NCBI GenBank assembly: GCA_937872125.1
Contig: CALMNY010000270.1
Coordinates: 1-14,151, forward strand
DNA from: an uncultured Candidatus Competibacteraceae bacterium
Lineage (GTDB): Bacteria > Pseudomonadota > Gammaproteobacteria > Competibacterales > Competibacteraceae
Direction: 5' to 3'
DNA length: 14,151 nucleotides
A program made the translations under genes and the position numbers. The notes below the pieces were generated by a model that was not told the DNA's origin, did not search any database, and saw nothing but the letters and a program-made list of their open reading frames with translations. Positions 917 through 13,757 of the stretch are shown here, one piece after another (positions within the stretch are counted from its first letter, which is position 1; the number at the start of each line of letters is the position of its first letter).

Positions 917-975
917 GCGCTCAGGCCCACTCCTGGATCATTCGCCGTACCGGGCGATGGCTGGGGGATCGCCGG

Positions 976-991
976 CCCCGCCTTCGCGGGG
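976..991. repeat. Hairpin upstream of the Gly/Tyr-rich gene
   Basis: CCCCGC (976-981) pairs exactly with GCGGGG (986-991) around a four-base CTTC loop. There is no following T-run, so it is a structural or REP-like element rather than a clear terminator. The rest of 690-1,053 shows no other supportable element. Confidence 0.4.
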
Positions 992-1053
992 AGTCCCACC
1001 CCCGTCACTGTTTGAGAACCAGGCCGCCCCGTCCGGCGGGTAGGAGTGAACCG

Positions 1054-1401
1054 ATGAATGCCATGAAGTGGATTCTGGGAGCCGTCGTCGCTACCGCGAT
1101 CGTGGTCCCGCTGCAGAGCGCCAACGCATGGAATGGCGACGGCTACGGAAGGGGTGGTTACGACGGAACTCGCCACGGCGATTACCGAGGGGGTGACTAC
1201 CCCGGTAACCGGGGCGACTACCGCGGCTACCACAGGCCTCACCATCGCTATGGGCGTCATGGTTACTATGGGCATCGCGGGTACTACCGAGGTCACCGGC
1301 ATTATTACGGAGGCCCGGGCGACTACGGGCGGCCTTGGTACGGCGATCGCGGGCCGGTGGTGGTGGTTCCGACCCCGCCGCCCCCACCGTTCCCTTGGTA
1401 A
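1054..1401 (+). CDS. Small secreted Gly/Tyr/His/Arg-rich protein
   Basis: This encodes a 115-aa protein. The ATG at 1,054 is chosen because AGGAGT (1,042-1,047) is a good ribosome binding site ahead of it; the frame is open further upstream but with no such site. Residues 1-25 form a Sec signal peptide (MNAMKWILGAVVATAIVVPL) with a signal-peptidase I type SANA|WN cleavage site. The mature part is a low-complexity series of short units such as RGGYDG, RGDYRGYH, RHGYYGHRGYYRGH and RHYYGG, ending in PVVVV and a proline run. Such composition fits an exported structural, surface or metal-binding protein. Gly/Tyr-rich sulfur-globule envelope proteins share the style, but I see no specific match. 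No cysteine is visible. It stands alone, with the recombinase remnant convergent on its 3' side. The function is unknown. Confidence 0.75.
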   Translation: MNAMKWILGAVVATAIVVPLQSANAWNGDGYGRGGYDGTRHGDYRGGDYPGNRGDYRGYHRPHHRYGRHGYYGHRGYYRGHRHYYGGPGDYGRPWYGDRGPVVVVPTPPPPPFPW

Positions 1402-1430
1402 GCCCGTTTGCATTGGGGCGATCCTGGCCT

Positions 1431-1748
1431 TCACCGCTTGTTGACCACCGCCGCCATGCGGTCCTGGTCCACGTGGGTGTCGATCGGGGTCGTGGCCAGG
1501 TTGACGTGCCCCAGCAGCGCCTGAATGTCCACCCGTGCCGCGCCGGCGTTCAGGAGATGGGTGGCGTCGGTGTGGCGCAGCTTGTGGGGGCTGATCTTCT
1601 TCTCGATCCCCGCCTGCTTCAGCATCCCCCGCCGGTCGGCGCGGGTGGCTTGCGGGGACACCGGCTGGCCGGGCGGGCGGGCGAATAGAGACTCACCCCG
1701 GGGCGGGTCCTGCCGCCTGCTGGGCCGGGTTCCGTTCGCCGTCTCTTC
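1431..1748 (-). pseudogene. Tyrosine recombinase (phage/XerC-type integrase) C-terminal remnant
   Basis: The frame is open from after a TGA at 1,749-1,751 to the TGA at 1,431-1,433. The translation shows the end of an integrase catalytic domain: ESLFARPPGQPVS, then ISPHKLRHTDATHLLNAGAA (the HxxR box), then IQALLGHVNLATT (the LLGH box). The next motif should be IYTHV with the nucleophilic Tyr, but here it is PIDTHV, so the Tyr is Asp; a single T-to-G change would account for it. The N-terminal core-binding domain and the first catalytic Arg are absent. The fragment is thus both truncated and catalytically dead. It marks a former mobile-element insertion immediately left of the electron-transfer block. 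Confidence 0.8.
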
Positions 1749-1952
1749 TCACCCGGCCTGACGGAACGTCAGATGGAGCCGCTGTTCGCCCAGCAGCGGG
1801 TGCTGGCCGGCTTGGAGCGGCCGCACGCCATGATCGCGCAATCGGTCGGGACCGCCCCCCACCAGGACGTGGGGTACGACAACGATTCCTTCATTTTCGT
1901 GAGCAGACCCCTGATAGGTCTCGGCAGCAAGCGGCGAGGTGAGCGACTTCGC

Positions 1953-1969
1953 ACGCCAGCGGGTGGCGT
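1953..1969. other. Short stem-loop after the histidine kinase gene
   Basis: ACGCCA (1,953-1,958) pairs with TGGCGT (1,964-1,969) around a five-base loop, about 25 bp beyond the kinase stop codon. No T-run follows on the minus strand, so a terminator role is only a possibility. The interval 1,752-1,994 has no gene I can support, though a plus-strand frame from 1,773 (MEPLFAQQRVLAG) looks fairly protein-like for about 50 codons. Confidence 0.2.
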
Positions 1970-1994
1970 CGAGGTGACGTCGTCCCTGGTCAGT

Positions 1995-3371
1995 TCAATC
2001 GGCGGCAGGCAGGCACAGCCACAGGCGCGCACCGCCCAGGGGCGAGGTCTGCGCCTGTACGCTGCCCCCGTAGGTGTGGGCCAGGGTGCGCACGATATCC
2101 AGCCCCAGGCCGGAGCCGGGGCGTTGCTCGTCGAGCTGTACGCCGCGCTCGAACAGGCGATCGCACTGCGCCTGGGGAATGCCGGGGCCGTCGTCGTCCA
2201 CGGTGAAGCACAACTGGTTACCCTCGCGCCGCACATCGACCACGACGCGCGCGCGGGCCCATTTGCCGGCGTTGTCGATCAGATTGCCCAGCAGCTCGTA
2301 CAGGTCCTGCTCCTCGCCGCGAAAGGCGCCGTCCTGGGCCTGAGGCGCCAGCTCAAAACGAAGCTGCCGTTCGGTGTGCAGGCGCTGCATGGTGCGCAAG
2401 AGGGCCTGCACGGGCGCCAGCGCCGGGGTGCGCAGTCCCGTGGCGCGCACGGCGGCGGCGGCGCGGGCGCGCGCGAGGTGGTAGTCCACCTGACGGCTGG
2501 CGCTGGCCACCTGCTCGCGTACCAGTTGCGCCAGCGGGCTGCTGTCCTGGGCGGCGGCGTTGGCGAGGATGGATAGCGGCGTGTGCACTGCGTGGGCCAG
2601 ATTGCCGGCCTGGGTGCGGGCGCGCTGCACCATGTCGGCGTTTTGCGCCAGCACATGGTTGAACTCCTGCACCAACGGCTGTAGCTCCTGGGGAAAGCGG
2701 CCTTCCAACTGTGCGGCGCTGCCACTGTGCACAGCGGCCAGGCGCTGGCGCAGCCATTGCAGGGGGCGCAGCGCCAGTTGCAATTGCACGGCTACGGCCA
2801 CAGCCAGGCCCAGCGCCAGCATGCCAAGGGCGGTCAGCAGCAGGCGGGTAAACCGTTCCATGGGTTCGGCGATCAAGGCCTTGTCCGCCGCCACGACCAG
2901 GCGCAGCGGCGGGGCATCGTCCTCGGGCAACTGCAGGGTGCGCGCCACGGCCAGCAGTTCATGCCCCTGCGCGTCGTGTAATACCAGGACGTGGTAGCCC
3001 TGAGCGGGGTAGGCAGCGGGCGCGGCGGGCAGCGACAGCACCTGGTCCCACAGCGAGCGCGAACGCGCCAGCGCCACCTGCGGCTTGCTGCCCAGCCGGT
3101 CGATCTGCCAGTACAGGCCCGACAACGGCGCCGCCAGGCGCGGGTCGGCTGCCATGGAGCCGACGATGAGGCGCCCGCCCGGCTCCCAATCCACGGCGGC
3201 GCTCAGGTGGTCCAGTTGCATGACCAACTGCACCTGGAGTTGCTGGGTGATGTGGTCCTGGAACAAAGCGCGCAGCCCCCAGCCTGCCAGGGCGATGGTG
3301 AGCAGCATCCAGGCCAGGGTGCCCGCGAGCAGGCGCCAGCGCAGCGAGCCCGCGAACGCTTGCGCTGTCAT
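1995..3371 (-). CDS. Sensor histidine kinase of a two-component system
   Basis: This is a 458-aa inner-membrane kinase. TM1 spans about residues 13-36, a periplasmic sensor region about 37-173, and TM2 about 174-196. A HAMP-like linker follows, then the dimerisation helix with the phosphoacceptor His260 in NLAHAVHTPLSIL (PhoQ/QseC-like H-box). The ATPase domain carries the N-box LLGNLIDNAGKWA, the G1 box DDDGPGI and the G2 box GSGLGLDI. Nothing essential is missing. The ATG at 3,371 overlaps the response-regulator stop as ATGA, so the two are translationally coupled. The operon also encodes an exported PepSY protein and diverges from redox genes, so the signal is probably redox- or metal-related. 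That is inference from context, as the sensor region has no motif I recognise. Confidence 0.93.
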   Translation of the reverse strand: MTAQAFAGSLRWRLLAGTLAWMLLTIALAGWGLRALFQDHITQQLQVQLVMQLDHLSAAVDWEPGGRLIVGSMAADPRLAAPLSGLYWQIDRLGSKPQVALARSRSLWDQVLSLPAAPAAYPAQGYHVLVLHDAQGHELLAVARTLQLPEDDAPPLRLVVAADKALIAEPMERFTRLLLTALGMLALGLAVAVAVQLQLALRPLQWLRQRLAAVHSGSAAQLEGRFPQELQPLVQEFNHVLAQNADMVQRARTQAGNLAHAVHTPLSILANAAAQDSSPLAQLVREQVASASRQVDYHLARARAAAAVRATGLRTPALAPVQALLRTMQRLHTERQLRFELAPQAQDGAFRGEEQDLYELLGNLIDNAGKWARARVVVDVRREGNQLCFTVDDDGPGIPQAQCDRLFERGVQLDEQRPGSGLGLDIVRTLAHTYGGSVQAQTSPLGGARLWLCLPAAD

Positions 3372-4039
3372 GTGGGCGCGCTGACGTCCACCAGCCGGTA
3401 GCCCAGACCGCGCACGGTCTCGATGCTGCCGGGCGGCAGCTTCTTGCGCAGGCGGCCCACGAACACCTCGATGGTGTTGGAGTCGCGGTCGCTGTCGTAG
3501 GGGTAGATGTGTTCGGCCAGCTCGGTGCGCGAGAGCACCTCGCCCTTGCGCTGCATCAAGAGCGACAGCAGCTTGAATTCATGGCTGGTCAGCGGCAAGG
3601 GCTGGCTATCGACCAGCACGCGCGCCTGGCGCGTATCGAGCCAGATCGGGCCGCATTGCCACTGCGCGCTGGCATGCTCACCCAGGCGGCGCAAAAGCGC
3701 ACGCAAGCGCGCGAGCAACTCCTCCATGTGAAAGGGCTTGGCCAGGTAGTCGTCGGCGCCGGCGTCTATACCCTCAACCTTTTCCTGCCAGGCGCCGCGC
3801 GCGGTGAGGATGAGCACCGGCATGTTGCGTTCGGCCGTGCGCCAGCGGCGCAACACCGACAGGCCGTCGAGCACGGGCAGGCCCAGGTCGAGCACCACGG
3901 CGTCGAAATCCTCCACCTCGCCCAGGTAATGCGCCTCGGCGCCGTCGCTGGCGCTTTCCACCGTGTGGCCTGCGCCGCTGATGGCCTGCACCAACTGGGC
4001 GCACAGCGTGGGCTCGTCTTCCACGACGAGGATGCGCAT
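3368..4039 (-). CDS. OmpR/PhoB-family response regulator
   Basis: This encodes 223 aa. The receiver domain has the acidic pair D8/E9 in MRILVVEDE, phosphoacceptor D51 in VVLDLGLP, T79 in LILTAR and K101 in LAKPF. A winged-helix DNA-binding domain follows (about 125-217), with LTSHEFKLLSLL and VFVGRLRKKL, and the family ending ETVRGLGYRL. The ATG at 4,039 is chosen over an upstream TTG (4,042) because AAGGAG lies five bases before it. The ATG overlaps the PepSY stop by one base (TGATG), and the gene's own stop overlaps the kinase start. It is the expected regulator of its own operon and probably of the divergent reductase operon, through the direct repeat at 4,394-4,411. Confidence 0.95.
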   Translation of the reverse strand: MRILVVEDEPTLCAQLVQAISGAGHTVESASDGAEAHYLGEVEDFDAVVLDLGLPVLDGLSVLRRWRTAERNMPVLILTARGAWQEKVEGIDAGADDYLAKPFHMEELLARLRALLRRLGEHASAQWQCGPIWLDTRQARVLVDSQPLPLTSHEFKLLSLLMQRKGEVLSRTELAEHIYPYDSDRDSNTIEVFVGRLRKKLPPGSIETVRGLGYRLVDVSAPT

Positions 4040-4371
4040 CAAGGCTCCTTGCGTTTCATGCTGATGACCTGGCCGTCGACGGCATTGACCTTGAGCTTGG
4101 CCATGCGGCCGTCGTTTTGCAGCAGGCGGATTTCGTAGATGAAGCGCCCGTCGTCATGCTCGAACTCGACCTTGAGCACCTGGCCCTGGTAGTCGCGCTC
4201 CACCGTGTCGAGCACGCTGCGCAGCGGCAACGCCTGGCCTTGCTCCAGCGCCTGGCGCGCCAGGTCATAGTCACGCTCATCGGCCTGCAGGGTTCCGCCC
4301 GCGCCCAGGGCGTACACCCACAGGCTCAGCAGGGTCAGGCGGCGGAAGGGGGCGGTACGGCGGGTATTCAT
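4039..4371 (-). CDS. Exported PepSY-domain protein, first gene of the two-component operon
   Basis: This is a 110-aa protein. Residues 1-30 form a signal peptide (RR...LTLLSLWVYALGAGGTLQA|DE). The mature part is one PepSY-type fold: ARQALEQGQALPLRSVLDTV helix, then strands GQVLKVEFEHDDGRFIYEIR and LKVNAVDGQVISM. PepSY domains often regulate or chaperone partner proteins in the periplasm, and small ones occur beside redox membrane proteins. The stop codon overlaps the response-regulator ATG (TGATG), so it belongs to the same transcript. It may tune the sensor kinase or bind a component of the divergent electron-transfer system; this is inferred from position only. The ATG at 4,371 is chosen because the signal peptide begins there. 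The frame is open far upstream, but that translation is antisense to the reductase operon. Confidence 0.85.
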   Translation of the reverse strand: MNTRRTAPFRRLTLLSLWVYALGAGGTLQADERDYDLARQALEQGQALPLRSVLDTVERDYQGQVLKVEFEHDDGRFIYEIRLLQNDGRMAKLKVNAVDGQVISMKRKEP

Positions 4372-4375
4372 AAAA

Positions 4376-4383
4376 ATTTTATA
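4376..4383 (-). promoter_or_regulatory. Candidate -10 element of the PepSY/two-component operon
   Basis: TATAAAAT reads on the minus strand from 4,383 to 4,376 within a stretch that is AT-rich for this window. No good -35 lies 17 bp upstream. That position is covered by the TTCATC direct repeat instead, as at activator-dependent promoters. Initiation at the usual distance would fall at or next to the ATG, implying a nearly leaderless transcript. Confidence 0.45.
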
Positions 4384-4393
4384 CCTCGGCGGC

Positions 4394-4411
4394 GATGAAC
4401 GGCGGATGAAC
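4394..4411. promoter_or_regulatory. Direct repeat GATGAAC-N4-GATGAAC, candidate response-regulator site
   Basis: Two identical heptamers start at 4,394 and 4,405, exactly 11 bp apart. On the minus strand they read as TTCATC-N5-TTCATC, ending ten bases before the TATAAA element. OmpR-family regulators such as PhoP and PmrA bind 11-bp-period direct repeats about this far upstream of the -10. The site lies in the divergent intergenic region (4,372-4,530), so it could control both operons. The assignment to the adjacent regulator is inferred. Confidence 0.5.
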
Positions 4412-4530
4412 ACGGCCTTCAGCATGGGTTCAAGGCGGTTTTTCCAGAATTGTTCCCAAGCCAAATGCGGCGCCCGGTCACCCGCAACCACGACTGAAGC
4501 GCCACCCACCAAGCCAAAAAGGAAGACCGC

Positions 4531-5913
4531 ATGCGTATCAAAATCGCCCTGGGAATCTGGTTGCTGGGAATCACCCTGGCCTGGCTGGCGGTGGCCCCGC
4601 CGGACCCGGGCCTGTGGCCGCTGGTTGATGCGCAGGGCGCGGCCTCGGGCTGGTGGCGGCTGCGCCAGCACGCCATCTACCTCACGGGCCTGTGGAGCAT
4701 AGGCTTGATGAGTCTGGGCATGCTGCTGGCGCTGCGCCTGCCGCTGCTGGAGCGCCCGCTGGGCGGCATGGACCAGGTCTATCGCCTGCACAAATGGGCG
4801 GGCATCAGCGCCGCCATTACGACCATCGCCCACTGGGGCGCCAAGGAATCCAGCGGCTGGATCAAGGCCCTGTGGGGCCGCGCCGGCCACCCCGAGCGCG
4901 AGGCCGTGTGGGCCTGGTTGACCGATAGCCGGGGCCTGGCCAAGGACGTGGGCGAATGGGCATTCTACCTGCTGCTCGCGATGGTGCTCATCACCCTGTG
5001 GCAGCGCCTGCTGCCCTACAAGCGCTGGCGCATCACGCACCGCGCCATGCCGCTGCTGTATCTGGCGCTGGTGTTCCATGCCGTGGCGCTGATGCCACTC
5101 TCCTTCTGGGCCATGCCGCTGGGCCTGCTGATGGGCAGCCTGTTGGCGCTGGGCAGCCTCGCGGCGCTGTGGTCGCTGGCGGGCTGGATCGGCCTGCGGC
5201 GCAGCCACGCAGCCCGGATCCATGCTGTGCGGCTGTTGGGGGACGGTGCGCCGGACGCACCCGTGGAAGTGATCTGCGCCATGCCACCAAGCTGGCCGGG
5301 CCACCGCGCGGGGCAGTTCGCCTTTGTGCGCTTCGACCGCAGCGAAGGCGCCCACCCCTTCACCATTGCCAGCGCCCCTGGGGCGCTGGGCGTGGGCGAG
5401 CGGGGCGAGTCGCTGCTGCGCCTGGTCATCAAGCCCCTGGGCGACTATACCCGCACGCTGCACCAGCGCCTGCGCGCCGGGCAGAGCGTAACCATCGAAG
5501 GCCCCTACGGCCGCTTTGACGGCCGGGGTCAAGCCGAACGCCAGCAGGTCTGGGTGGCGGCGGGCGTGGGCGTCACCCCCTTCCTCGCGCTGCTGGAGGC
5601 ACGCCAGCCCGGTGCTTCCGGCCCGGCCGCAGACCTGGCCCCTGTGCACATGCACTACTGCACCCGCGACGCCCGCCGCGACCCGCTGCTGGCGCGCGTG
5701 CAGGCGCTGTGCGCCCAGGCCCAGCCGCCGGTGCAGCTCACGGTGCACAGCGCGGCCCAGGGGCCGCTTCTGAAGCCCCAGGATCTGGAAGTCATCTCCG
5801 GACCGCTGGATATCTGGTTTTGCGGTCCGCAGGGCCTGGGCGATGCGCTGCACGCCCACGCCAGCGGCCCGCGGCCCTGGCGTCTGCACCGCGAATCGTT
5901 TGCCATGCGTTGA
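4531..5913 (+). CDS. Ferric-reductase-like transmembrane cytochrome b/flavoprotein
   Basis: This is a 460-aa protein with an N-terminal membrane domain (about residues 5-222, roughly six helices) and a C-terminal cytosolic FAD/NAD(P)H reductase domain. The heme ligands are visible as two His pairs, H87/H101 and H170/H183, spaced 14 and 13 residues apart as in the FRE/NOX ferric-reductase superfamily. The FAD-binding motif is HPFTIASAP (275-283), followed by GPYGRF (324-329). The NAD(P)H motifs are AAGVGVTPF (343-351) and CGP (431-433). The expected reaction is electron transfer from NAD(P)H through FAD and two hemes to an acceptor on the periplasmic side, such as Fe(III), a flavoprotein or a quinone. 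The start has an AAGGAAG ribosome binding site. It is the first gene of a five-gene plus-strand operon. Confidence 0.9.
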   Translation: MRIKIALGIWLLGITLAWLAVAPPDPGLWPLVDAQGAASGWWRLRQHAIYLTGLWSIGLMSLGMLLALRLPLLERPLGGMDQVYRLHKWAGISAAITTIAHWGAKESSGWIKALWGRAGHPEREAVWAWLTDSRGLAKDVGEWAFYLLLAMVLITLWQRLLPYKRWRITHRAMPLLYLALVFHAVALMPLSFWAMPLGLLMGSLLALGSLAALWSLAGWIGLRRSHAARIHAVRLLGDGAPDAPVEVICAMPPSWPGHRAGQFAFVRFDRSEGAHPFTIASAPGALGVGERGESLLRLVIKPLGDYTRTLHQRLRAGQSVTIEGPYGRFDGRGQAERQQVWVAAGVGVTPFLALLEARQPGASGPAADLAPVHMHYCTRDARRDPLLARVQALCAQAQPPVQLTVHSAAQGPLLKPQDLEVISGPLDIWFCGPQGLGDALHAHASGPRPWRLHRESFAMR

Positions 5914-5928
5914 TGTGGAGGCTTTCCC

Positions 5929-6342
5929 ATGAAAACCCATCCCTCCCTTTTGTCCCTTTGTCTGGCCCTGGCGGCGGCGCCCGCCCTGGCCAGCGATGAC
6001 TGCGACGCGCCGGTCGAACGCTGGCAATCGCGCGAGGCCGTGCGCCAGATGGCCGCGCAGCAGGGCTGGCAGGTGCAGCGCCTGAAGATCGACGACGGTT
6101 GCTACGAAATCCGTGGTGCCGATGCCCAGGGCCGATCCTTCAAGGCCAGGATCGACCCGGAGACCCTGCGACTGGTGAAGATGAAAGTGCGCGACCGCGA
6201 CCATGACCAGGAGCGCGACCGCGACCGCGAGCGCCCGCGCAGCCCGGACGCGCCCCCGCGCAATGCCGATGGCGGGGCCAACGCCCCCGCCTCCGGCCCC
6301 TTGCTGACGCCCGGCGCCACGCCGGGCGGCCATAGTGAATGA
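5929..6342 (+). CDS. Exported PepSY-like protein with charged C-terminal tail
   Basis: This is a 137-aa protein with a signal peptide (residues 1-21, ALA|SDD cleavage) and a TGGAGG ribosome binding site. The core (about 27-87) resembles the PepSY_2 type: REAVRQMAAQQGWQVQRLKI, then GCYEIRGADAQGRSFKARID and PETLRLVKMK. Cys25 and Cys58 could form a periplasmic disulfide. After residue about 88 the protein becomes a highly charged run of Arg/Asp/Glu (RDRDHDQERDRDRERPR) and then a Pro/Gly/Ala-rich tail, probably disordered. PepSY domains of this class often accompany transmembrane electron-transfer proteins, where they may bind or position the redox partner. It lies 15 bp after the reductase gene and 20 bp before the DUF2271 gene. 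A direct redox role is not shown, as no cofactor motif is visible. Confidence 0.75.
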   Translation: MKTHPSLLSLCLALAAAPALASDDCDAPVERWQSREAVRQMAAQQGWQVQRLKIDDGCYEIRGADAQGRSFKARIDPETLRLVKMKVRDRDHDQERDRDRERPRSPDAPPRNADGGANAPASGPLLTPGATPGGHSE

Positions 6343-6362
6343 GTTTGCAACGGAGAACGACC

Positions 6363-6839
6363 ATGTCCAAACCCCTTCTGACCACCGTGGCCGTCGCCTG
6401 CGCGCTGGCCCTGCCCGCCGCCGCGCACAGCCGCCAGATCACGCTGTCCACTACCCTCAACAACTACGGGGGCGACGGCGCCTACCTCGCCGTATACCTG
6501 ACCGACGCCAAGGGCGCCTACGCCAGTACGCTGTGGGTGGCCGGTGGCAAAGCCAAGTACTACAAGCACCTGGCGGACTGGAACCGGTTGTCCGCCGGCG
6601 ACAGCAAGCGCCTGGATGGCGTGACCGGCGCCAGCGTGGGCGCGGGCCGCACGCTCAAGGTCACGGCAGAGCTGGCCGACGCGCTGATCGATGCCGGCTA
6701 CGAAATCCGCGTCGACGCGGCGGTGGAAAACATGCGCGACAGCCCGTCGGAGGTGCGCGCGCCGCTGACGAGCACCAACGCCGGCAAACCGCAGCCCGGC
6801 AAGCAGTACATTCAGGCGCTCACCTTCCAACTGCAATAA
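6363..6839 (+). CDS. Exported DUF2271 protein with a predicted FMN-attachment (ApbE acceptor) motif
   Basis: This is a 158-aa protein with a signal peptide (about residues 1-21, ALALPAAA) and a GGAGAACGACC leader before the ATG at 6,363. The mature domain matches my memory of DUF2271: ITLSTTLNNYGGDGAYLAVY, TLWVAGGKAKYYKHLADWNR and a C-terminal GKQYIQALTFQLQ. At residues 85-91 lies DGVTGAS, which fits the D-x-x-[ST]-G-A-[ST] pattern that ApbE enzymes modify by linking FMN to the Thr/Ser; the acceptor would be Thr88. An ApbE gene closes the same operon. This makes the protein a good candidate for the periplasmic flavin electron carrier of the system. The motif is seen directly. Flavinylation and the carrier role are inferred. 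Confidence 0.82.
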   Translation: MSKPLLTTVAVACALALPAAAHSRQITLSTTLNNYGGDGAYLAVYLTDAKGAYASTLWVAGGKAKYYKHLADWNRLSAGDSKRLDGVTGASVGAGRTLKVTAELADALIDAGYEIRVDAAVENMRDSPSEVRAPLTSTNAGKPQPGKQYIQALTFQLQ

Positions 6840-6852
6840 GCAAGAGCACATC

Positions 6853-9060
6853 ATGGGCTGGAAATCGATCCACCGCTGGCTGGGCCTCATGGCGGGCACG
6901 CTGGCGCTGGTGCTGGGCCTGACCGGCGCCCTGCTCGCCATCGACCCGATTCAGCAGGCCTGGCAGGCCCCGGCGGCGGGCGAGCTGCCGGTGGCGACGC
7001 TAGTGGAGCGGGTCTCGCGCACCATCCCCGGCATCGAGGAAATCCGCCACCTGCCCTCGGGCGTGGTTGTGGTTCATTCCTTCGAGCAGGACCAGGCCCG
7101 CGCCGTCCGCGTCGATCCGGCCGATGGCCGCGTGCTGGGACCCTACCAACCTTCGGTGCTCCCGCGCTGGGTGAAGAACCTGCACCGCACGCTGCTGCTG
7201 GGCGACGCTGGACGTTGGGGCGCGGCGGCTGCCGCCCTCGCCATGCTGGTGCTGAGCAGCTCGGGCCTGCTGCTGCTGCTGCGCCGCATGGGCGGCTGGC
7301 GGCGCCTCGCCGCGCGCGTGCGCGGCACGCTGGCGCAGCGCGTGCACGTACTCACCGGGCGCGTGGTGCTGGCGGTGCTGCTGCTGACTTCCGTCACGGC
7401 GCTGTACATGAGCGCGACCACGCTCGGCTTCGTCGCGCTTGATCCACCCAGCGAACCCGAGGTGGTCTCGGTGGCCAACGGCCAACCGATGCTTGCCGGC
7501 GCGCAACTGCTCCTGCTGCAGAGCCTGCCCCTGCGGGACCTGCGCAAGCTCAATTTCCCGGACGCGAGCGATCCCGAGGACGCCTGGCAGGTGACGACCC
7601 GCACGGGCCAGGCCTGGATCGACCGCTACTCGGGCCAGCAGCTCGCCTGGCAGGACGCGACAACGGCCCAACGCCTGTACGACTGGGCCCTGATGCTGCA
7701 CGCGGGCGAAGGCGCCTGGTGGCCGTGGGTGCTGGTGCTGGGCGCCACGGGAGCGAGCATCCCCCTGTTTTGGGTGACGGGTCTCATCCTCTGGTGGCAG
7801 GCGCGCCGCCACAGGCCCCGGGTGGCCCACAACAGCCCGCTGGCGCAGGCCGACATGCTGATCTTCGTCGCCAGCGAGGACGGCAGCACCTGGGGCTTCG
7901 CCCAGGCGCTGCACGATGCCCTGGTACGGGCGGGCCACCGCGTCCACAGCGCCGCGCTCGAACACTTCCAGAGCGGGCCGGCGGCGCGGCAGATCTTTGT
8001 GCTGGCCTCCACCTACGGCGAAGGACAGGCGCCGGCGCACGCCAGCCGGGCGCTAGAACGCATCCAGGCCCTGGACGCGGCGGCCGTGCCGGTCACGGTG
8101 CTGGGCTTTGGCGACCGGCAGTTTCCGGCCTTCTGTGCCTTTGCCGAAGCGCTGGATAGCACGCTGCGCCAGCGCGGCTGGCCCCAGTTGCTCCCGTTCG
8201 CGCGCATCCACCAGCAATCGGCCCAGGAATTTACCCGCTGGGGGGAAGCGCTGGCCCAGGCGCTGGACGAACCTCTGGCGCTGGACTACCGGCCGCACCG
8301 GCCGCCCACCACGACGCTGACGCTCGAGGCGCGCCAGGACTACCCCGGCCGCGCCGACCAGCCGACGGCGATCCTGCGCTTTCGCTGGCTCCCTCAGAGC
8401 GCCTGGGACCGCCTGCTGGGCCGGGGCCTGGCGCGCTTTGTCGCCGGCGACCTGCTGGGTGTGCTGCCGCCCGACTCGAGTATGCCGCGCTACTACTCGC
8501 TGGCCTCGGGCTGGCGCGACGGCTTCGTGGAAATCTGCGTGCGCCGCATGCCCGGCGGCGTTTGCTCCGGCTACCTGCACGCGCTGCAGCCCGGCGACAC
8601 CCTCCAGGCCTTCGTCCGTCCCAACCCCGGCTTTGCGCTGGCAGGCGAACGGGGGCCTGTGGTGCTGATCGGTGCGGGCACGGGCGTGGCGCCGCTGGCG
8701 GGTTTCATTCGCGGCAACGCGCGGCGCACCCCCATGCACCTGTACTTCGGCACCCGCGACCCGGCGCGGGATTTCTACTTTGGCCCCGAACTTCAGCGCT
8801 GGCTGGGCGAGCGGCGCCTGGCCAGCCTGCGCACGGTGTTCTCGCGCACCGCTGGCGGCGGGGGTTATGTGCAGGACGCGCTGCGCCGCGATGCCAGCCG
8901 GTTGCAGGAGTTGCTGGCCCGGGGCGCCATCGTGCGCGTGTGCGGCAGCCGCCCCATGGCGCAGGGTGTGGCCCAAGTGCTCGACGGCATCCTGGCCGCG
9001 CGGCGCCTGAGCGTGGCGCAACTCAAGGCGAACGGACGCTATGCCGAAGACATCTTCTGA
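6853..9060 (+). CDS. PepSY-TM / flavodoxin / FAD-NAD(P)H reductase fusion
   Basis: This is a 735-aa inner-membrane flavocytochrome. Residues 1-320 are a PepSY-TM (PiuB/FoxB-like) domain with four hydrophobic helices (about 10-30, 122-144, 168-190, 290-316), a periplasmic PepSY part, and four conserved-looking His residues, H7, H111, H165 and H283, placed as heme ligands. A flavodoxin-like FMN domain follows at 333-472 (ASTYGEG, LGFGDRQFPAF). The C-terminal part is a cytochrome P450 reductase-type module: RYYSLASG (546-553) and GGVCSGYLH (568-576) for FAD, GAGTGVAPL (607-615) and YFGTRDPARDF for NADPH, and the terminal RYAEDIF, where the FAD-stacking aromatic is Phe rather than the common Trp. 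Electrons should flow NADPH-FAD-FMN-heme-periplasm. It lies 13 bp after the DUF2271 gene. The ribosome binding site is weak, suggesting coupling. Confidence 0.92.
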   Translation: MGWKSIHRWLGLMAGTLALVLGLTGALLAIDPIQQAWQAPAAGELPVATLVERVSRTIPGIEEIRHLPSGVVVVHSFEQDQARAVRVDPADGRVLGPYQPSVLPRWVKNLHRTLLLGDAGRWGAAAAALAMLVLSSSGLLLLLRRMGGWRRLAARVRGTLAQRVHVLTGRVVLAVLLLTSVTALYMSATTLGFVALDPPSEPEVVSVANGQPMLAGAQLLLLQSLPLRDLRKLNFPDASDPEDAWQVTTRTGQAWIDRYSGQQLAWQDATTAQRLYDWALMLHAGEGAWWPWVLVLGATGASIPLFWVTGLILWWQARRHRPRVAHNSPLAQADMLIFVASEDGSTWGFAQALHDALVRAGHRVHSAALEHFQSGPAARQIFVLASTYGEGQAPAHASRALERIQALDAAAVPVTVLGFGDRQFPAFCAFAEALDSTLRQRGWPQLLPFARIHQQSAQEFTRWGEALAQALDEPLALDYRPHRPPTTTLTLEARQDYPGRADQPTAILRFRWLPQSAWDRLLGRGLARFVAGDLLGVLPPDSSMPRYYSLASGWRDGFVEICVRRMPGGVCSGYLHALQPGDTLQAFVRPNPGFALAGERGPVVLIGAGTGVAPLAGFIRGNARRTPMHLYFGTRDPARDFYFGPELQRWLGERRLASLRTVFSRTAGGGGYVQDALRRDASRLQELLARGAIVRVCGSRPMAQGVAQVLDGILAARRLSVAQLKANGRYAEDIF

Positions 9061-10075
9061 GCGGCCCCGGCGCGGCTGGCGCATCCACCGGCACGGGCCC
9101 ACCATGGGCACGCGCTGGTCCGTCTCCTGCGACGTCGAACCGGAAATCGCCACCGACGCCCTGCACCAAGCCTTGGCCGCGGCGGTGGAGCAGGTGGATC
9201 GGCAGATGTCACCCTGGAAGCCGGACAGTGACCTGAACCGGCTGAACCAGGCGCCACCCGACCACTGGGTGGCCCTGCCCGCCCAAATCCTGCAGGTGCT
9301 GACTCGGGCGCTGGACATCAGCCGCCTGAGCAGCGGGGCCTTTGATCCGGCCGTTGGCGCGCTGGTCGATGCCTGGGGCTTTGGCGCCGTGCGCGACCGC
9401 CCCGATGCCGTCGCCATTCGCGCCGCCGCCCAGGCGACATACCAACCAGCCCATCAGGGGCTGGAACTGGACGCGCTTGCCGGCCGCGCCTGCAAGCGCG
9501 CCCCCGTGCAGCTCGACCTGTGCGGCATTGCCAAGGGCTACGCCGTCGATCAGATGGCGGCCGTGCTGCAGCGCCACGGCGTGCAGCATGCCCTGGTGGC
9601 TCTCGATGGCGAACTGCGCGCCGTGGGCAGCCAGGCCGACGGCCAGCCCTGGGCCGTGGCCGTGGAAAGCCCGCAGCCTGGACGCCGTGCCGCCCATGGC
9701 GTGATCGAACTGCAGGATCTGGCCATCGCCACCTCGGGTGACTACCGCCGTTGGGTGGAGGTGGGCGGCGTGCGCCTGTCGCACACCATGGATGCGCGCC
9801 GGGCCGCACCGGTCCACCACGCCGTGGCGTCGGTCACCGTGCTGGCGCGCGACTGCATGAGCGCCGATGCCTGGGCCACCGCGCTGCTGGTCGCAGGCCC
9901 GGGCGAAGGCCCGGCCCTGGCTCAGCGCATGGGGCTGGAGGCACTGTTCCTGTTGCGCCGCGAGGGGCGCTGGGTGGAGCTGGGGCTGGGGCGCTTTGCG
10001 GCCGCCCCAGCGGCAAACCCCATGGCACACCACCACGCCCCTACCGCACCGCCAGCCCCGCCGCATGCTCGATGA
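9041..10075 (+). CDS. apbE: FAD:protein FMN transferase (ApbE family)
   Basis: This is a 344-aa enzyme that attaches FMN from FAD to Thr/Ser of target proteins, using Mg2+. Family motifs occur in order: MGT (22-24), MSPWKPDSDLNRLN (56-69), SGAFDPAVGALVDAWGFG (98-115), LDLCGIAKGYAVD (158-170), ATSGDY (230-235), HTMDAR (248-253) and SADAWATAL (274-282) with the metal-binding Asp/Thr. The start overlaps the end of the reductase fusion by 20 bp, so it is translationally coupled. No signal peptide or lipobox is visible: the N-terminus is basic and polar (SSERPRRGWRIHRHG). Most extracytoplasmic ApbE proteins are exported, so this copy looks cytosolic unless the start is wrong. The C-terminus ends in an odd His/Pro/Ala tail close to the transposon junction. 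The obvious substrate is the DUF2271 protein. Confidence 0.93.
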   Translation: MPKTSSERPRRGWRIHRHGPTMGTRWSVSCDVEPEIATDALHQALAAAVEQVDRQMSPWKPDSDLNRLNQAPPDHWVALPAQILQVLTRALDISRLSSGAFDPAVGALVDAWGFGAVRDRPDAVAIRAAAQATYQPAHQGLELDALAGRACKRAPVQLDLCGIAKGYAVDQMAAVLQRHGVQHALVALDGELRAVGSQADGQPWAVAVESPQPGRRAAHGVIELQDLAIATSGDYRRWVEVGGVRLSHTMDARRAAPVHHAVASVTVLARDCMSADAWATALLVAGPGEGPALAQRMGLEALFLLRREGRWVELGLGRFAAAPAANPMAHHHAPTAPPAPPHAR

Positions 10076-10099
10076 CGGGGTTGCGCTCCACACGAAACG

Positions 10100-10315
10100 G
10101 CATGGCGCTTCAAAAACGACCGTGGCGATGCTGTGGTGCGTGAGGATGAGATCTACGACTGGTTTGCGGCCAAGGACAACGCGGCGCTGTGTTCCTGGGA
10201 GCACTTCTGTCGCCTGGCGCGGGAACCGGAGCGGCGCAAGGTCGGCGGCGATGCGCGGATCGTGGTCGGTGGCACCGTTTATGAAGTCGATCCCGGCCTG
10301 GCTCATGCGGACTGA
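10100..10315 (+). pseudogene. Transposase fragment (Mu-C-type domain)
   Basis: An open frame gives RFKNDRGDAVVREDEIYDWF, then WEHFCRLAREPERRKVGGDA and RIVVGGTVYEVDPGLA before a TGA. The last part resembles the beta-barrel Mu-C domain that follows the DDE catalytic core in transposases paired with an AAA ATPase. The DDE core is missing upstream, and the C-terminal extension expected after EVDPGLA is also missing: the frame stops within 11 bp of the ATPase start. The gene is therefore deleted at both ends. The upstream junction lies between the apbE stop (10,075) and about 10,106. Confidence 0.65.
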
Positions 10316-11275
10316 AGTCATCGAGTATTACCGGCTGACCAAGCCGTTGAACCGGGCCGGCTATTATGAAACCGCACACCACAGCCAGATCATCAAGAAC
10401 GTGCGCGGCGCCATCCTGGAAGGCCGCATCGTCGCCCTCTGTGGCGTGATCGGCAGCGGGAAGACCGTGATGCTGCGCCGGTTACAGCAACAATTGAAGG
10501 AGGAAAATCGCATCACCGTCTCCCGTTCCCTGACGGCGGAAAAGCACAGCGTCAAGCTCAGCACCCTGGTGGCGGCGCTGTTCTACGATCTTTCGCCAGA
10601 AAGAAGGTCCGCGTGCCCAGCCGAACTGAAGATCGCGAGCGGGAACTCCAGGAATGGGTGAAAAAGAGCAAGCGACCGGTCGCCTTGTTCATCGACGACG
10701 CCCACGCACTCAAGGATGATACGCTCACCGGACTCAAGCGACTGATGGAAGTCATCGAAAGCGATGGGGGTTGCCTGTCGGTGGTCCTGGCCGGTTGGCC
10801 CAAGCGGCGCAATGACTTGCGCCGCCCGAAGCTGGAGGAAATCGGTATGCGGACCGATACCTTCTCCCTCGACGGCATCACCGGCAGCCAGCGCGAATAG
10901 ATCCAGTGGTTGCTGTCAACCTGCGCGGCGCATCCGCAGGGTCCCGATGCGATCATCCGTCCCGAAGCGGTCGATCTGCTGGCCAGCCGGTTGCGGACAC
11001 CCCTCCAGATCGAATGGCATCTGACCCAAGCTTTGGAGGCTGCCTATCAGACCGGTGAATCCCCTATCGGTCCCGAACTGGTCGAGACCCTGCTGTACCG
11101 GCATCTGGATGATCTGGAATCGACCCTAACCCGGCAAGGCTACGGCCTCAAGGACCTGGTGCAGAACTTCGACGCCAAGCCGGCGGAAATTAAAGCCCTA
11201 TTTGCCAATCAGCTCGATCCGATCCGGGCCAATGACCTGCGCGATCGGATGCGCCTCGCCGGACTGCCTATTTGA
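10305..11275 (+). pseudogene. Transposon-type AAA ATPase (TniB/ExeA-like), broken by frameshift and stop
   Basis: The N-terminal part starts at ATG 10,305 and contains Walker A, CGVIGSGKTVML. Around 10,600 the frame shifts by -1: FYDLSPE continues as KKVRVPSRTEDRERELQEWV only in the next frame, consistent with loss of one A from a short A-run. The second frame holds Walker B, PVALFIDDAHAL, and LSVVLAGWPKR, then hits TAG at 10,898-10,900 inside GSQRE*IQWLL. The same frame then continues to RMRLAGLPI and the stop at 11,275. Read through, it is a full-length target-selection ATPase of about 320 aa that would have partnered the adjacent transposase. Two independent lesions make a pseudogene the best call. 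The shift site is not a canonical slippery heptamer. Confidence 0.85.
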
Positions 11276-11290
11276 ACGGGTCACGGTGAC

Positions 11291-11434
11291 TGGCAATTAA
11301 TGTGGTCCCGGACCGGATGATTGCAGTCTCAGTGGCAAATAATCCGGTCCCGACGGTGCCGATAGTTGCATTTAATTCGGTCCTGAAATCGCGATGATTT
11401 CAGTCCTGACCGTTTTCGATTTCAGTCCTCTACA
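11291..11434 (+). mobile_element. Transposon right end: six helically phased transposase-binding-like repeats
   Basis: Six copies of a degenerate core (A/G-ATT-N3-GTCC-T/C type) begin at 11,299, 11,320, 11,341, 11,374, 11,397 and 11,419. The spacings are 21, 21, 33, 23 and 22 bp, close to whole helical turns. The first, third and fourth copies extend to a shared 20-bp block (for example 11,291-11,310 and 11,333-11,352 agree at 17 of 20). The outermost copy ends with CTACA at 11,430-11,434, so the tip reads inward as TGTAG. Multiple repeated sites at the tips are typical of Mu/Tn7/Tn5053-like elements with a DDE transposase and an AAA ATPase. The array starts 16 bp after the broken ATPase gene, in the right orientation to be its right end. 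Confidence 0.7.
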
Positions 11435-11438
11435 CCTA
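11413..11438 (+). repeat. 26-bp inverted repeat, left copy
   Basis: The reverse complement of 11,413-11,438 matches 11,710-11,735 at 25 of 26 positions; the only difference is A versus C. The inner part is the transposon tip repeat, and the outer four bases (CCTA here, TAGG there) extend the match beyond the TGT tip. Confidence 0.8.
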
Positions 11439-11499
11439 TTTGCTTAGCGTAGGATATTGGGAAGATTCTGCGATAACCATTTGTAAAAAGAGACACTAT

Positions 11500-11712
11500 A
11501 TGATAAGAAAACCGATGGGTATTGAAGAACGCATGGTCGGAGTAGGCCAAATCCTGATCGAGTGTTTTTACGAGTTGCCGTTGAATGATAACGATATAAA
11601 CGATCTCTTCGATGTGGTCGCCGAGATCATGGGGGCGGCGCTAGACGTAGACCAACTCGGCTATGACCGTGAAGATGTTATCGCTGGGCTGCGGAGCATG
11701 TGTAAGGAGTAG
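11500..11712 (+). CDS. Small protein of unknown function in an AT-richer segment between two transposon ends
   Basis: This encodes 70 aa from ATG 11,500 (MIRKPMGIEERMVGVGQILI). Other possible starts are TTG 11,440 (90 aa), ATG 11,515 and ATG 11,533. The product is acidic and probably helical, with YELPLNDNDINDLFDVVAEI and ending VIAGLRSMCKE. It has no signal peptide, no membrane segment and no motif I recognise. The upstream AAAAAGAGA is at best a weak ribosome binding site. The segment is clearly richer in A/T than everything around it, which suggests a different origin. Its stop codon (TAG, 11,710-11,712) lies inside the right inverted repeat and directly touches the second transposon tip. 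It could be cargo of an element or a chromosomal scrap trapped between two insertions. Confidence 0.55.
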   Translation: MIRKPMGIEERMVGVGQILIECFYELPLNDNDINDLFDVVAEIMGAALDVDQLGYDREDVIAGLRSMCKE

Positions 11713-11751
11713 GTGTAGAGGACTGCAATCGAAAATCACCAAGACTGTAAT
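11710..11751 (+). mobile_element. Second transposon end, inverted relative to the first
   Basis: It starts with TAGG-TGTAG and carries two cores in reverse orientation at 11,719-11,729 and 11,741-11,751, spaced 22 bp as in the other end. This looks like the left end of another copy of the same element lying to the right, but no transposase follows; coding remains of a cpYpsA gene begin 22 bp later. It is therefore a solo end or the relic of a deletion. Confidence 0.65.
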
Positions 11752-11772
11752 CAGCGCAGTTTCGTAACCAGA

Positions 11773-11985
11773 TTGCTCCACAAACTCATCAGCGGCGGCC
11801 AGACCGGCGTAGACCGGGCGACCCTCGATGTGGGGCTGGTTCTGGGCCTGGCAGTCGGCGGCGGGTGTCCGCCGGGCCGACGCGCCGAGGACGGGGTGAT
11901 TCCCGACCGCTACCCGCTGGTGGAGACCCCGGAGCGCAACGACCCGGCCCGCACCCGGTGCAAGAACGCGGATGCGGACAGGAAC
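11773..11985 (+). pseudogene. Molybdenum-carrier-type (cpYpsA) protein, degraded
   Basis: The frame starts at TTG 11,773 and gives HKLISGGQTGVDRATLDVGL, then GGGCPPGRRAEDGVIPDRYP and LVETPERNDPARTR. These are the signature blocks of the putative molybdenum cofactor/nucleotide carrier family (cpYpsA, PF12694), including SGGQTGVDR and GRRAEDG. The following block should read like RTxxNVxxSDGT. Here it decays (KNADADRNRRRW) and GTAV appears one frame away, indicating a frameshift near 11,965-11,980. No homologous C-terminus follows before the convergent alkene-reductase gene. The start sits 22 bp after a transposon end, so its promoter was probably lost too. The family is clear. Loss of function is inferred. 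Confidence 0.7.
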
Positions 11986-12132
11986 CGCCGTCGGTGGATG
12001 CCCAGGCATGATCGATACCCAGAAAGGGGTCCATCGGGGCGGCCATCTCGCCACCCCGCAGGGAGCAAGCGCGAACGCCACTGCCGCTGTTCATGCGTTG
12101 CCGGTGGGTGATTTCACTCCTCCCAGCCTTCT

Positions 12133-13203
12133 TCAAGCGGCGCTCGTTCCGCTCAGGAACGGGTAGTCCGTATAGCCCTGAGCGCCGGGTGAATAGAACG
12201 TGCTCGGGTCCGGCGTGTTGAGCGGCGCGCCCCGGCGGAAGCGCTCCGGCAGATCGGGATTCGCCAGAAAGGCGCTACCGAAGACCGTCGCGTCGGCTCG
12301 GCCATCCGCCACAGCGGCTTCAGCGCTCTTCTGGTCGAGACCGCCGCCGATCAGGTAGGCGCCGTTGAAGCGCGGGCGCAACCGGGCGTGGTAATCGAAT
12401 TTGGCCCCGAACTGGGCGACGTGCAGGTAAGCCGGATTGAGGCCACGAAGTTGCTCGACCAGGTAGGTGTAAGTTTCCTGGGGATTGGCGTCAACGATGT
12501 CGTTGAAGTGCATTTCCGGCGCAATCTTCACCCCGACGCGATCTCCGCCGGCCTCGGCGACCATCGCCGCCAGCACCTCCAGCACAAAGCGGGCGCGATT
12601 CGCGACAGAGCCGCCGTATTGATCCTGACGCTGGTTGGCGCCGGACGCAAGAAATTGTTCCGGCAGGTAGCCCGAAGCCGCGTGCAGTTCCACCCCATCG
12701 CAGCCCGCTTCCAGCGCGCGGCGCGTCGCGATGCGAAAGTCCGCAATGATTGCAGCAATCTCGTCTACACTCAGCGCCCGCGGGGTGACGAAATCCTGCA
12801 GACCACTCGGGGTCCAGCTTTGGCCAGCCGGCTTGATCGCGGACGGCGCCACGGGTACCGCCCCTTCCGGCAATAAGGCGGGGTGAGAGATCCGTCCGGT
12901 GTGCCACAGTTGCATGAAAATCCGGCCCCCTTGGGCATGGACGGCCTCAGTGATTTTCTTCCAGGCGGCCACCTGGGCATCGGTCCCGATCCCCGGCGTG
13001 CGCACGTAACCCTTGCCCATCGGCGAAACATAGGCGCATTCAGTAATGATCAGCCCGGCGCTGGCGCGTTGGCTGTAATACGTGATCGCCAATTCACTCG
13101 GCACGCCATCGTCGCCGGCGCGGGAACGGGTCATCGGCGCCATGACCATACGGTTTGACAAGGTATAGCGACCGACGCGAACGGGGGTGAAAAGTGGGCT
13201 CAT
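12133..13203 (-). CDS. Alkene reductase of the Old Yellow Enzyme family
   Basis: This is a 356-aa FMN-dependent ene-reductase that uses NAD(P)H to reduce activated C=C bonds or nitro compounds. It starts LFTPVRVGRYTLSNRMVMAP, with the FMN-tuning Thr25 in APMTRSRA. Other landmarks are MQLWHTGRISHP, then GVELHAASGYLPEQFL with H174 and Y179, DQYGGSVANRARF, and a C-terminal YTDYPF. In most OYE enzymes the substrate-anchoring pair is His-Asn or His-His; here the second position is Ser177 (HAAS). The ATG at 13,203 is preferred over the longer frame (13,248) because GAGGA precedes it and the family begins there. A truncated LysR gene lies divergently upstream, so its regulation may be altered. Confidence 0.93.
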   Translation of the reverse strand: MSPLFTPVRVGRYTLSNRMVMAPMTRSRAGDDGVPSELAITYYSQRASAGLIITECAYVSPMGKGYVRTPGIGTDAQVAAWKKITEAVHAQGGRIFMQLWHTGRISHPALLPEGAVPVAPSAIKPAGQSWTPSGLQDFVTPRALSVDEIAAIIADFRIATRRALEAGCDGVELHAASGYLPEQFLASGANQRQDQYGGSVANRARFVLEVLAAMVAEAGGDRVGVKIAPEMHFNDIVDANPQETYTYLVEQLRGLNPAYLHVAQFGAKFDYHARLRPRFNGAYLIGGGLDQKSAEAAVADGRADATVFGSAFLANPDLPERFRRGAPLNTPDPSTFYSPGAQGYTDYPFLSGTSAA

Positions 13204-13313
13204 AGCGTGTTCCTCAGAGGTTATTGTTGGGGGTCGAAGCATGATCAACCAAAGCCGATGCAGGATAAAGCAGGTAAAATCGAAACCATTGGTCCGCTGA
13301 TGGATCCCTGTGC

Positions 13314-13480
13314 GTGGAACTCCCGAACGATAGGGCTTTATTCGTGGAGGTCGTTAAAGCGCGCGGCTTCCGTCATGCCGCCGAAGCGGTCGGGATGCCG
13401 AACTCCACGGTGTCGCGCTGGATCAGCACCCTGGAAAAGGCCATGGGGTCGGGCCTGCTCCACCCCACCCCACGCCAGAG
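13314..13480 (+). pseudogene. LysR-type regulator, N-terminal fragment
   Basis: From GTG 13,314 the translation gives LPNDRALFVEVVKARGFRHA, then AEAVGMPNSTVSRWISTLEK and AMGSGLLHPTPRQ. This is the winged helix-turn-helix of a LysR regulator, with the AxxVGMPNSTVSRWI recognition region. Homology fades after LLHPTPR at about 13,480, where the family would continue into the linker helix and the effector-binding domain of some 200 residues. The frame ends at 13,523. It is divergent from the alkene reductase, the usual layout for a LysR regulator and its target, so this was probably that gene's regulator. A DNA-binding domain alone would be unlikely to respond to an inducer. Confidence 0.75.
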
Positions 13481-13757
13481 CGCGCTGAGTGTTCTTGGCT
13501 GTCCGCCCGTTCGCCGTCGATGAGGGAGGCGGCGATCAGCGGGAGCGCGGTGCGTGATGGCCCGTGGGGCGCGGGATCGTGGGGCACGTCTGGTCTCCAT
13601 TTTTCAGTCGGGCCGGATCATAAGGGCCAGTGACGGGTTGCGCCTGGCCGGAACGGACCCGGCAGCTCGGGCCGTCGGTTGGAGCCGGGCGGCCAGATCA
13701 TGCCGATATTCAGCGCGTGACGCCGGCGTGACGGCGCGGGAACGAAGGGACCGCATC
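13481..13757. other. Interval without a supportable gene
   Basis: Neither strand gives a recognisable protein. Short open frames on the minus strand are Arg/Pro-rich and look like noncoding GC-rich sequence. The only local order is a direct repeat of GCGTGACG at 13,715-13,722 and 13,726-13,733 (11-bp period) shortly before the acetyltransferase start. Confidence 0.4.

Follow-up and report, generated by a model that had tools for sequence, protein, structure and literature searches.

Why would an operon that appears to serve a single periplasmic flavin carrier encode two separate electron-input proteins, and what governs its expression? These questions are raised by a DNA stretch of 14,151 nucleotides from an uncultured Candidatus Competibacteraceae bacterium (GenBank assembly GCA_937872125.1, contig CALMNY010000270.1, positions 1 to 14,151 of the forward strand), referred to here in its entirety as the window. 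An earlier note on this DNA had described a five-gene locus combining two transmembrane flavocytochromes, an exported PepSY protein, a DUF2271 protein with an ApbE acceptor motif, and ApbE itself, and had left open the reason for the two input modules. The computational analysis reported here points to an answer in the neighboring, divergent genes: a two-component system (TCS) of the SK1 type probably controls a regulon of interchangeable periplasmic electron-delivery genes, through which electrons from NAD(P)H or from quinol would reach a DUF2271 protein carrying flavin mononucleotide (FMN).

The Divergent Sensor Module

The boundaries given in the earlier note (4531–10075) hold for the five plus-strand genes but leave out a divergent operon on the minus strand (1995–4371) and the operator that separates the two units. 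The divergent operon encodes PepSYa, a small exported PepSY protein of 110 residues (4039–4371; PF03413, 36.6 bits), an OmpR/PhoP-type response regulator of 224 residues (3368–4042; PF00072 and PF00486), and a sensor histidine kinase of 458 residues (1995–3371; HATPase_c, with a PhoQ-like catalytic domain). The kinase contains the periplasmic motifs SGLYWQ (residues 84–89) and RSRSLWD (residues 103–109), in which S84, G85, Y87, W88, Q89, and the whole of R103–D109 are invariant in 20/20 aligned relatives. SGVYWQ- and RSRSLWD-like motifs define SK1, the kinase of the Sphaeroides heme protein (SHP) operons, with which a periplasmic protein, Orf1, is strongly correlated (PMC2909971). At the level of its motifs, the window kinase has both published hallmarks of SK1. 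PepSYa, found beside the TCS in 23 sequences including the window, is the small periplasmic partner adjoining the kinase operon and is likely the counterpart of Orf1 and of DbfQ from Vibrio cholerae; the suggestion that Orf1 is a PepSY protein is made here; PMC2909971 does not use the term. The response regulator shares 82–92% identity with the regulators next to the closer kinases and 64–71% with those next to more distant ones.

DbfQRS of V. cholerae and BqsRS/CarSR of Pseudomonas aeruginosa are likewise PepSY–kinase–regulator modules (PMC12714742, PMC12666569, PMC4682146). BqsS, which senses Fe2+, has been called an orthologue of V. cholerae DbfS, which is itself controlled by the small PepSY protein DbfQ (PMC12714742, PMC12666569), and SK1 occurs in Vibrio (PMC2909971). 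We infer that SK1 and DbfS/BqsS form one family, DbfS and BqsS having been compared by description only; the window module differs from DbfQRS and BqsRS in its box sequence, in its regulon, and in the first periplasmic helix of its kinase. The ExxE iron motif that BqsS carries on this helix was not found in the window kinase, which has only EPME at position 169, a sequence that is not conserved in close relatives. BqsS-like iron sensing through ExxE was rejected on this ground, and the cue therefore need not be iron. By analogy with DbfQRS, which answers to membrane stress (PMC12714742, PMC12666569), membrane stress is the best present guess, and the regulon would answer an envelope cue rather than iron starvation. 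For the structural model of the kinase (pLDDT 81.5, pTM 0.44), the 50 matches listed are kinase cores or kinases aligned at large root-mean-square deviation, and none of them identified the sensor-domain fold.

The Operator and Its Proposed Regulon

The 159-bp gap between the divergent units contains a 37-bp operator (4396–4432, plus strand) with the sequence TGAAC-N6-TGAAC-N6-TTCAG-N5-GTTCA. Its direct repeat, GATGAAC-N4-GATGAAC, occurs exactly once in the window, with 0.05 occurrences expected at up to two mismatches in dinucleotide shuffles, and an inverted pair extends the repeat to the full form, the position and layout of which are conserved. The same pentamer-N6-pentamer layout is found in TTAAG-N6-TTAAG, which is bound by BqsR, the response regulator of the presumably related Fe(II) system (PMC4682146). 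The PepSYa–regulator–kinase system would act through this operator, which is predicted to accommodate two dimers of the response regulator, on the divergent operon that runs from FRE, the NOX/ferric-reductase-type flavocytochrome, to ApbE.

The operator was followed through 52 sequences, comprising the window and 51 related loci, which were collected by scanning genome contigs for CPR, the second flavocytochrome of the operon, and carry labels mostly of betaproteobacterial genera or families. These sequences (911 kb) contain 49 sites of the 37-bp form with at most two mismatches, while three mononucleotide shuffles of the 911 kb gave 0 sites. Of these sites, 47 precede the TCS, FRE (once an FRE remnant), cytochrome b561, the PepSY_2 protein PepSYb, or the small protein c8 at a distance of up to 700 bp, and the other two (L025:6138 and L036:12248) coincide with the 5′ ends of reading frames for YceI. 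When one mismatch at most is allowed, the operator is present in 25/30 and in 9/23 genome handles, and a reversed-pattern control gave 0 sites in 53/53 genome handles; the window genome has the operator once. All 12 full-length FRE sequences of at least 50% identity have the operator upstream, and none of seven more distant FRE homologues (39–49%) in the same genomes is among the operator sites listed.

Genome-wide, 63 of 69 distinct sites (48 and 21 in two genome sets) are tied to the TCS or to a regulon member. Outside the core loci, TCS-linked sites accompany b561 (L124) or FRE (L125), and sites at related TCSs face DUF1924–DHC–cytochrome b genes (L126–L129 and L146). Other sites belong to FRE (L122), b561 (L123), c8 (L148), YceI, and a PepSY_2/PHO4 pair (L121, from Castellaniella caeni, in which the operator has the PepSY_2 protein on one side and the PHO4-family phosphate transporter on the other). 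As the operator also precedes the DUF1924/SHP–DHC–cytochrome b genes and YceI in related genomes, the window locus appears to be one member of a periplasmic electron-delivery regulon.

Operator and sensor also occur together across genomes. Among 53 distinct genomes that have the core in full or in part, including the window genome (G378 and G406, which have identical coordinates, being counted once), 33 carry both the operator and an SK1-type kinase, two the operator only (G443 and G452), none the kinase only, and 18 neither, so that cores without an operator exist; the Fisher value of 2.9e-12 overstates independence because the genomes are related, and the kinase threshold of at least 44% identity was set after the table was seen. 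These two limits weigh against control of one regulon by the SK1 system, as do several further observations. The operators of G443 and G452 occur without a kinase over the cut-off, and weaker kinases (30–39%) occur both in the operator-negative G370, G378, G448, and G449 and in the operator-positive G443. Six of the 69 sites have no explanation: three (G418:C179:29212, L130; G416:C3:430130, L131; G447:C185:17518, L156) lie within about 1 kb of other OmpR-type two-component genes, one (G447:C169, L143) precedes an open reading frame (ORF) that by eye is membrane phosphatase-like, one (G440:C654, L149) has nothing recognised in 1592 bp, and the sixth is in G443:C50. Finally, the ApbE of the operon has no visible export signal, which is hard to reconcile with periplasmic flavinylation, a point taken up below.

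Genes and Cofactor Sites of the Flavin Operon

All five ORFs of the plus-strand operon were found in the order that the earlier note had given and with the domains that it had assigned, as judged by Pfam profile matches above the family cut-offs. FRE (4531–5913, 460 residues) consists of PF01794 and PF08022, the latter forming the part that binds flavin adenine dinucleotide (FAD) and NAD(P)H. Its histidines H87, H101, H170, and H183 are invariant in 12/12 full-length sequences (the window, nine loci, and the unlinked L122 and L125) and are spaced as HX13H and HX12H, which is the two-heme pattern of NOX enzymes. FRE fits a NOX/ferric-reductase flavocytochrome with two predicted bis-His heme sites plus an FAD/NAD(P)H domain, in which NAD(P)H electrons would pass through FAD to the two hemes. 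Its best PDB match is 8qt6 (3e-28), a prokaryotic NOX-type flavocytochrome that we take to be SpNOX; FRE shares its transmembrane plus FAD/NAD layout but differs in being encoded with a flavin carrier operon.

CPR (6853–9060) joins a PepSY_TM domain (residues 6–316; PF03929) to a flavodoxin domain (337–456; PF00258) and an FAD/NAD(P)H reductase region (about 540–707; PF00970 and PF00175). Its H7, H111, H165, and H283 are kept in at least 95% of 50 rows of one alignment and in 29/29 of a second, in keeping with a described PepSY protein that has two bis-His hemes (PMC11334425), and the soluble half resembles diflavin reductases both by sequence and by model (pLDDT 83, Foldseek). FoxB, considered as a PDB relative of the PepSY part, was not in the best 60 of 96 sequence matches and was absent too from the 50 Foldseek matches listed for the CPR model, where diflavin reductases dominate; the heme assignment of CPR therefore rests on the conserved histidines. 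Electrons, preferentially those of NADPH, would pass through FAD and FMN to the membrane hemes, and CPR and FRE would both deliver them to the periplasmic face.

PepSYb (5929–6342, plus strand, 137 residues; PF13670, 97 bits) is an exported PepSY_2 protein with two cysteines (25 and 58) conserved in at least 95% of 48 rows, and no PDB relative was found for it by sequence. DUF2271, the predicted flavin carrier (6339–6839; PF10029, 122 bits), has a Sec-like hydrophobic N-terminus and likely starts at 6363 (MSKPLL), M9 being kept in at least 95% of 30 rows; it has no significant PDB relative by sequence (three matches, E 0.8–0.9). The ApbE acceptor motif that had been proposed on this protein reads TGAS (residues 96–99; 6624–6635) and is identical in 30/30 aligned DUF2271 proteins, and for the [S/T]GA[S/T] motif class flavinylation has been demonstrated by experiment in A. 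ursilacus (PMC8238504). ApbE (9041–10075, plus strand, 344 residues; PF02424, 280 bits), whose start overlaps the CPR gene, has a conserved catalytic region and FAD:protein FMN transferases as its best PDB matches. It would flavinylate DUF2271 at the serine of TGAS, and DUF2271 would hand the electrons on; the earlier proposal of electron flow from NAD(P)H to the periplasm onto a flavinylated DUF2271 is implied by these domains and conserved ligands. As a guess, the acceptor is an oxidant or some oxidised component of the periplasm or membrane; siderophore iron seems the less likely choice.

The Nearly Constant Core and Its Proposed Interchangeable Donors

PepSYb, DUF2271, CPR, and ApbE are encoded together in 46/51 related loci, in line with the conserved synteny of DUF2271, PepSY-TM/flavodoxin, and ApbE that the earlier note had proposed to look for. 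Four of the remaining loci (L034, L041, L047, and L050) are truncated at a contig boundary, and no PepSYb is detectable in L048, the sole Rhodobacteraceae-labelled locus among the 51; the matches to ApbE in L042 and to CPR in L046 are fragmented. FRE, scored by tblastn after the ORF cluster c6, a mixture of true FRE with antisense ORFs, had been set aside, is full length in 9/51 loci (10/52 sequences including the window), and L005 retains a C-terminal remnant of it. A further 10/52 sequences contain cytochrome b561, which never shares a locus with FRE: it takes the position of FRE, between the TCS and PepSYb, in L016, L020, L029, L031, and L033, follows ApbE in L026, L028, L030, and L038, and lies upstream in L037. 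In the genomes G422 and G418, FRE and b561 coexist at separate places. The TCS (kinase of at least 44% identity) is in the same locus in 18/52 sequences. FRE is thus optional and outside the constant core, probably an interchangeable donor that the quinol-type b561 replaces in sister loci; the two input modules are real for the window locus but are not a general rule. Co-clusters of PepSY with MsrQ-like proteins have already been reported (108 clusters; PMC8238504).

Several side observations concern the same loci. In L005 and L055, a C-terminal FRE remnant lies beneath a weak operator (two mismatches), and the best kinase match in that genome is 35%, so that FRE has decayed there along with sensor loss. 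The small exported protein c8, encoded mostly after apbE and, in the copy scanned, lacking a Pfam match, is present in 17/52 sequences (e.g., L047:2051-2365 and L049:12322-12696), with the operator upstream in 14, and sometimes precedes a P-type cation ATPase or cytochrome b561. Such ATPases recur near the core (tblastn matches in 13/52 sequences, with at least 49% identity in 8), and in one case, L147, one that is 52% identical to that of L040 is divergent from a DUF1924–DHC (SHP) operon across two operator sites. The ATPase was not adopted as a regulon member.

ApbE and the Question of Export

The coding sequence of the window ApbE begins within the 3′ end of the CPR gene, and its MGT core follows 21 residues later. 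In the first 45 residues, no 10-residue stretch with a mean hydropathy of at least 2 was found in 53/53 ApbE rows, the highest value being 1.94 (L024, residue 36 onward); these rows include L042, with a broken frame and its true N-terminus outside the view, L005 and L055 from one genome, and some with longer open frames upstream. For DUF2271, PepSYb, PepSYa, and c8, the corresponding medians (first 60 residues) are 2.3–2.7, with single DUF2271 rows as low as 1.1, probably owing to uncertain starts. By hydropathy and inspection rather than a trained predictor, a signal peptide or lipidation site is present on at least one target, DUF2271, and not on ApbE. Most ApbEs seem to be secreted, and a periplasmic location was needed in one early test, while a cytosolic ApbE serves the soluble fumarate reductase of Klebsiella (PMC12052999). 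A signal-less ApbE beside a DUF2271 that looks Sec-exported is unexpected and suggests that flavinylation may precede export, which is the simplest reading. Its rival is rescue by another ApbE copy: further ApbE matches were found in 11/12 genomes searched, and 11/16 inspected copies have, by eye, lipoprotein- or twin-arginine-like N-termini, while in G420 (Comamonas badia) only the ApbE of the operon was found. The combined proposal that the signal-less ApbE loads FMN on the DUF2271 precursor before it leaves the cytosol, the chain crossing the membrane with its flavin already covalently attached, and that one SK1-type sensor switches flavin and heme chains under one operator, is put forward tentatively and is rather unlikely to hold in full.

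Alternative Explanations

The likeliest alternative is compatible with control by the SK1 system and touches the host assignment only: the window, contig C270 in a draft of 553 contigs and 80.7% completeness, may be foreign to that draft through a binning error or may be a recent import, and the cluster would then be uninformative about its host. This is a serious possibility that falls somewhat short of probable. Its GC content is 0.66–0.73 over positions 1–10,000 and 0.56–0.65 beyond, with a drop from about 0.70 after ApbE, compared with 0.61–0.67 in seven other contigs. No exact operator match occurs in any of the other 39 host-order genomes, and among the matches listed from 369 class genomes, near-full-length CPR relatives of at least 40% identity are only that of the window, G378 (73%), and G370 (43%), with G245 at 32%. 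The right third of the contig, with host-like GC, favors import over mis-binning.

The flanks of the operon contain several other reading frames. From the end of apbE, at the GC drop, pieces of a broken AAA-type ATPase extend over 9867–11275, one matching PF13401 just under its cut-off and another further under; they resemble the remains of a mobile-element ATPase at the border of an imported segment. A cpYpsA/SLOG-family fragment (11773–12111; PF12694 profile positions 2–65 of 145) is followed by an old-yellow-enzyme-type N-ethylmaleimide reductase-like gene (12133–13248; PF00724) with host-like GC, from which, by eye, a LysR-like reading frame is apparently divergent. At the other end, an acyl-CoA dehydrogenase C-terminal domain (3–860, minus strand; PF00441) runs off the contig.

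A second alternative is that FRE and CPR are independent and share regulation only, FRE acting like NOX on oxygen or metals and CPR alone feeding DUF2271. This is possible but doubtful. FRE is missing from most loci, in which CPR, DUF2271, and ApbE stay together, FRE or b561 stands at unlinked places under the operator (L122–L125), and the best PDB match of FRE is NOX-like; against this, wherever FRE is full length (10 sequences) PepSYb follows it directly on the same strand, and the occupation of its slot by b561 in five loci is what donors serving a shared carrier would be expected to show.

Assimilatory iron reduction, in which the chain would serve uptake by reducing ferric iron or ferric siderophores in the periplasm, a role proposed for PepSY/DUF2271/DUF4198 clusters in Caulobacter and others, draws on the link of PepSY-like flavinylation clusters to iron (PMC8238504), the loss of fitness of Caulobacter CCNA_03155-03159 mutants with EDTA (PMC12004947), the service of the PepSY proteins FoxB and HiuB in siderophore use, and the sensing of Fe2+ by BqsS, the presumed kinase relative (PMC12666569). 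It is nevertheless improbable, and the iron role hinted at by the Fe(III) assays of the earlier note finds little support: Fur control was rejected, as no Fur-like box with five or fewer mismatches to a Fur consensus was found in 46 upstream regions of up to 600 bp (the best had 6); a DUF4198-type cluster was rejected, as DUF4198 is absent from the draft of the window genome and over the cut-off in 4/30 genomes; no TonB receptor or known iron transporter was found in a scan of 31 flanking or regulon ORFs, which sampled a minor share of the flanking ORFs; the first-helix ExxE of BqsS is missing from the window kinase; and DbfS is reported not to have responded to iron.

Relation to Known Systems

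ApbE-linked extracytoplasmic flavin systems are, as the earlier note had said, known as a class (PMC8238504), and the core genes are not new because they belong to the published PepSY-type systems, in which PepSY_TM, DUF2271 with [S/T]GA[S/T], and ApbE are encoded in one operon (PMC8238504, PMC11334425); what may be new is the regulatory half. PepSY proteins with an NAD-binding domain have been described (1077; PMC8238504, PMC11334425), and DUF4198 is a frequent, not obligatory, partner (1500/3220 PepSY-like clusters; PMC8238504). The window locus differs from these systems in its PepSY_2 partner, the absence of DUF4198, its optional FRE/b561 slot, its SK1-type regulator and operator, and its ApbE without a visible signal peptide, and the fused flavodoxin/CPR half of its CPR is not described for PepSY-like systems in the available parts of the sources. 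No publication tying a TCS to a DUF2271/ApbE operon was found in a literature search that covered titles, beginnings of abstracts, and selected passages.

The sensor half resembles the SK1/Orf1 module of SHP operons, which likewise combines an SGxYWQ and RSRSLWD kinase with a small periplasmic partner and is laid out divergently, both sides carrying an orf1-like gene in some species (PMC2909971), and a window-type operator serves DUF1924–DHC–cytochrome b genes in sister genomes. Unlike that module, the window system has a flavin chain rather than an SHP chain as its output, and no operator is named in the available text of PMC2909971.

Implications

The shared operator ties the DUF2271 flavin system to the SK1 sensor family, and presumably to DbfS/BqsS, as well as to SHP, an oxygen-binding cytochrome. 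If ApbE acts before export, the system would depart from the view that such flavinylation takes place in the periplasm. That b561 can stand in for FRE suggests that the regulon requires a supply of periplasmic electrons and that their donor matters little.

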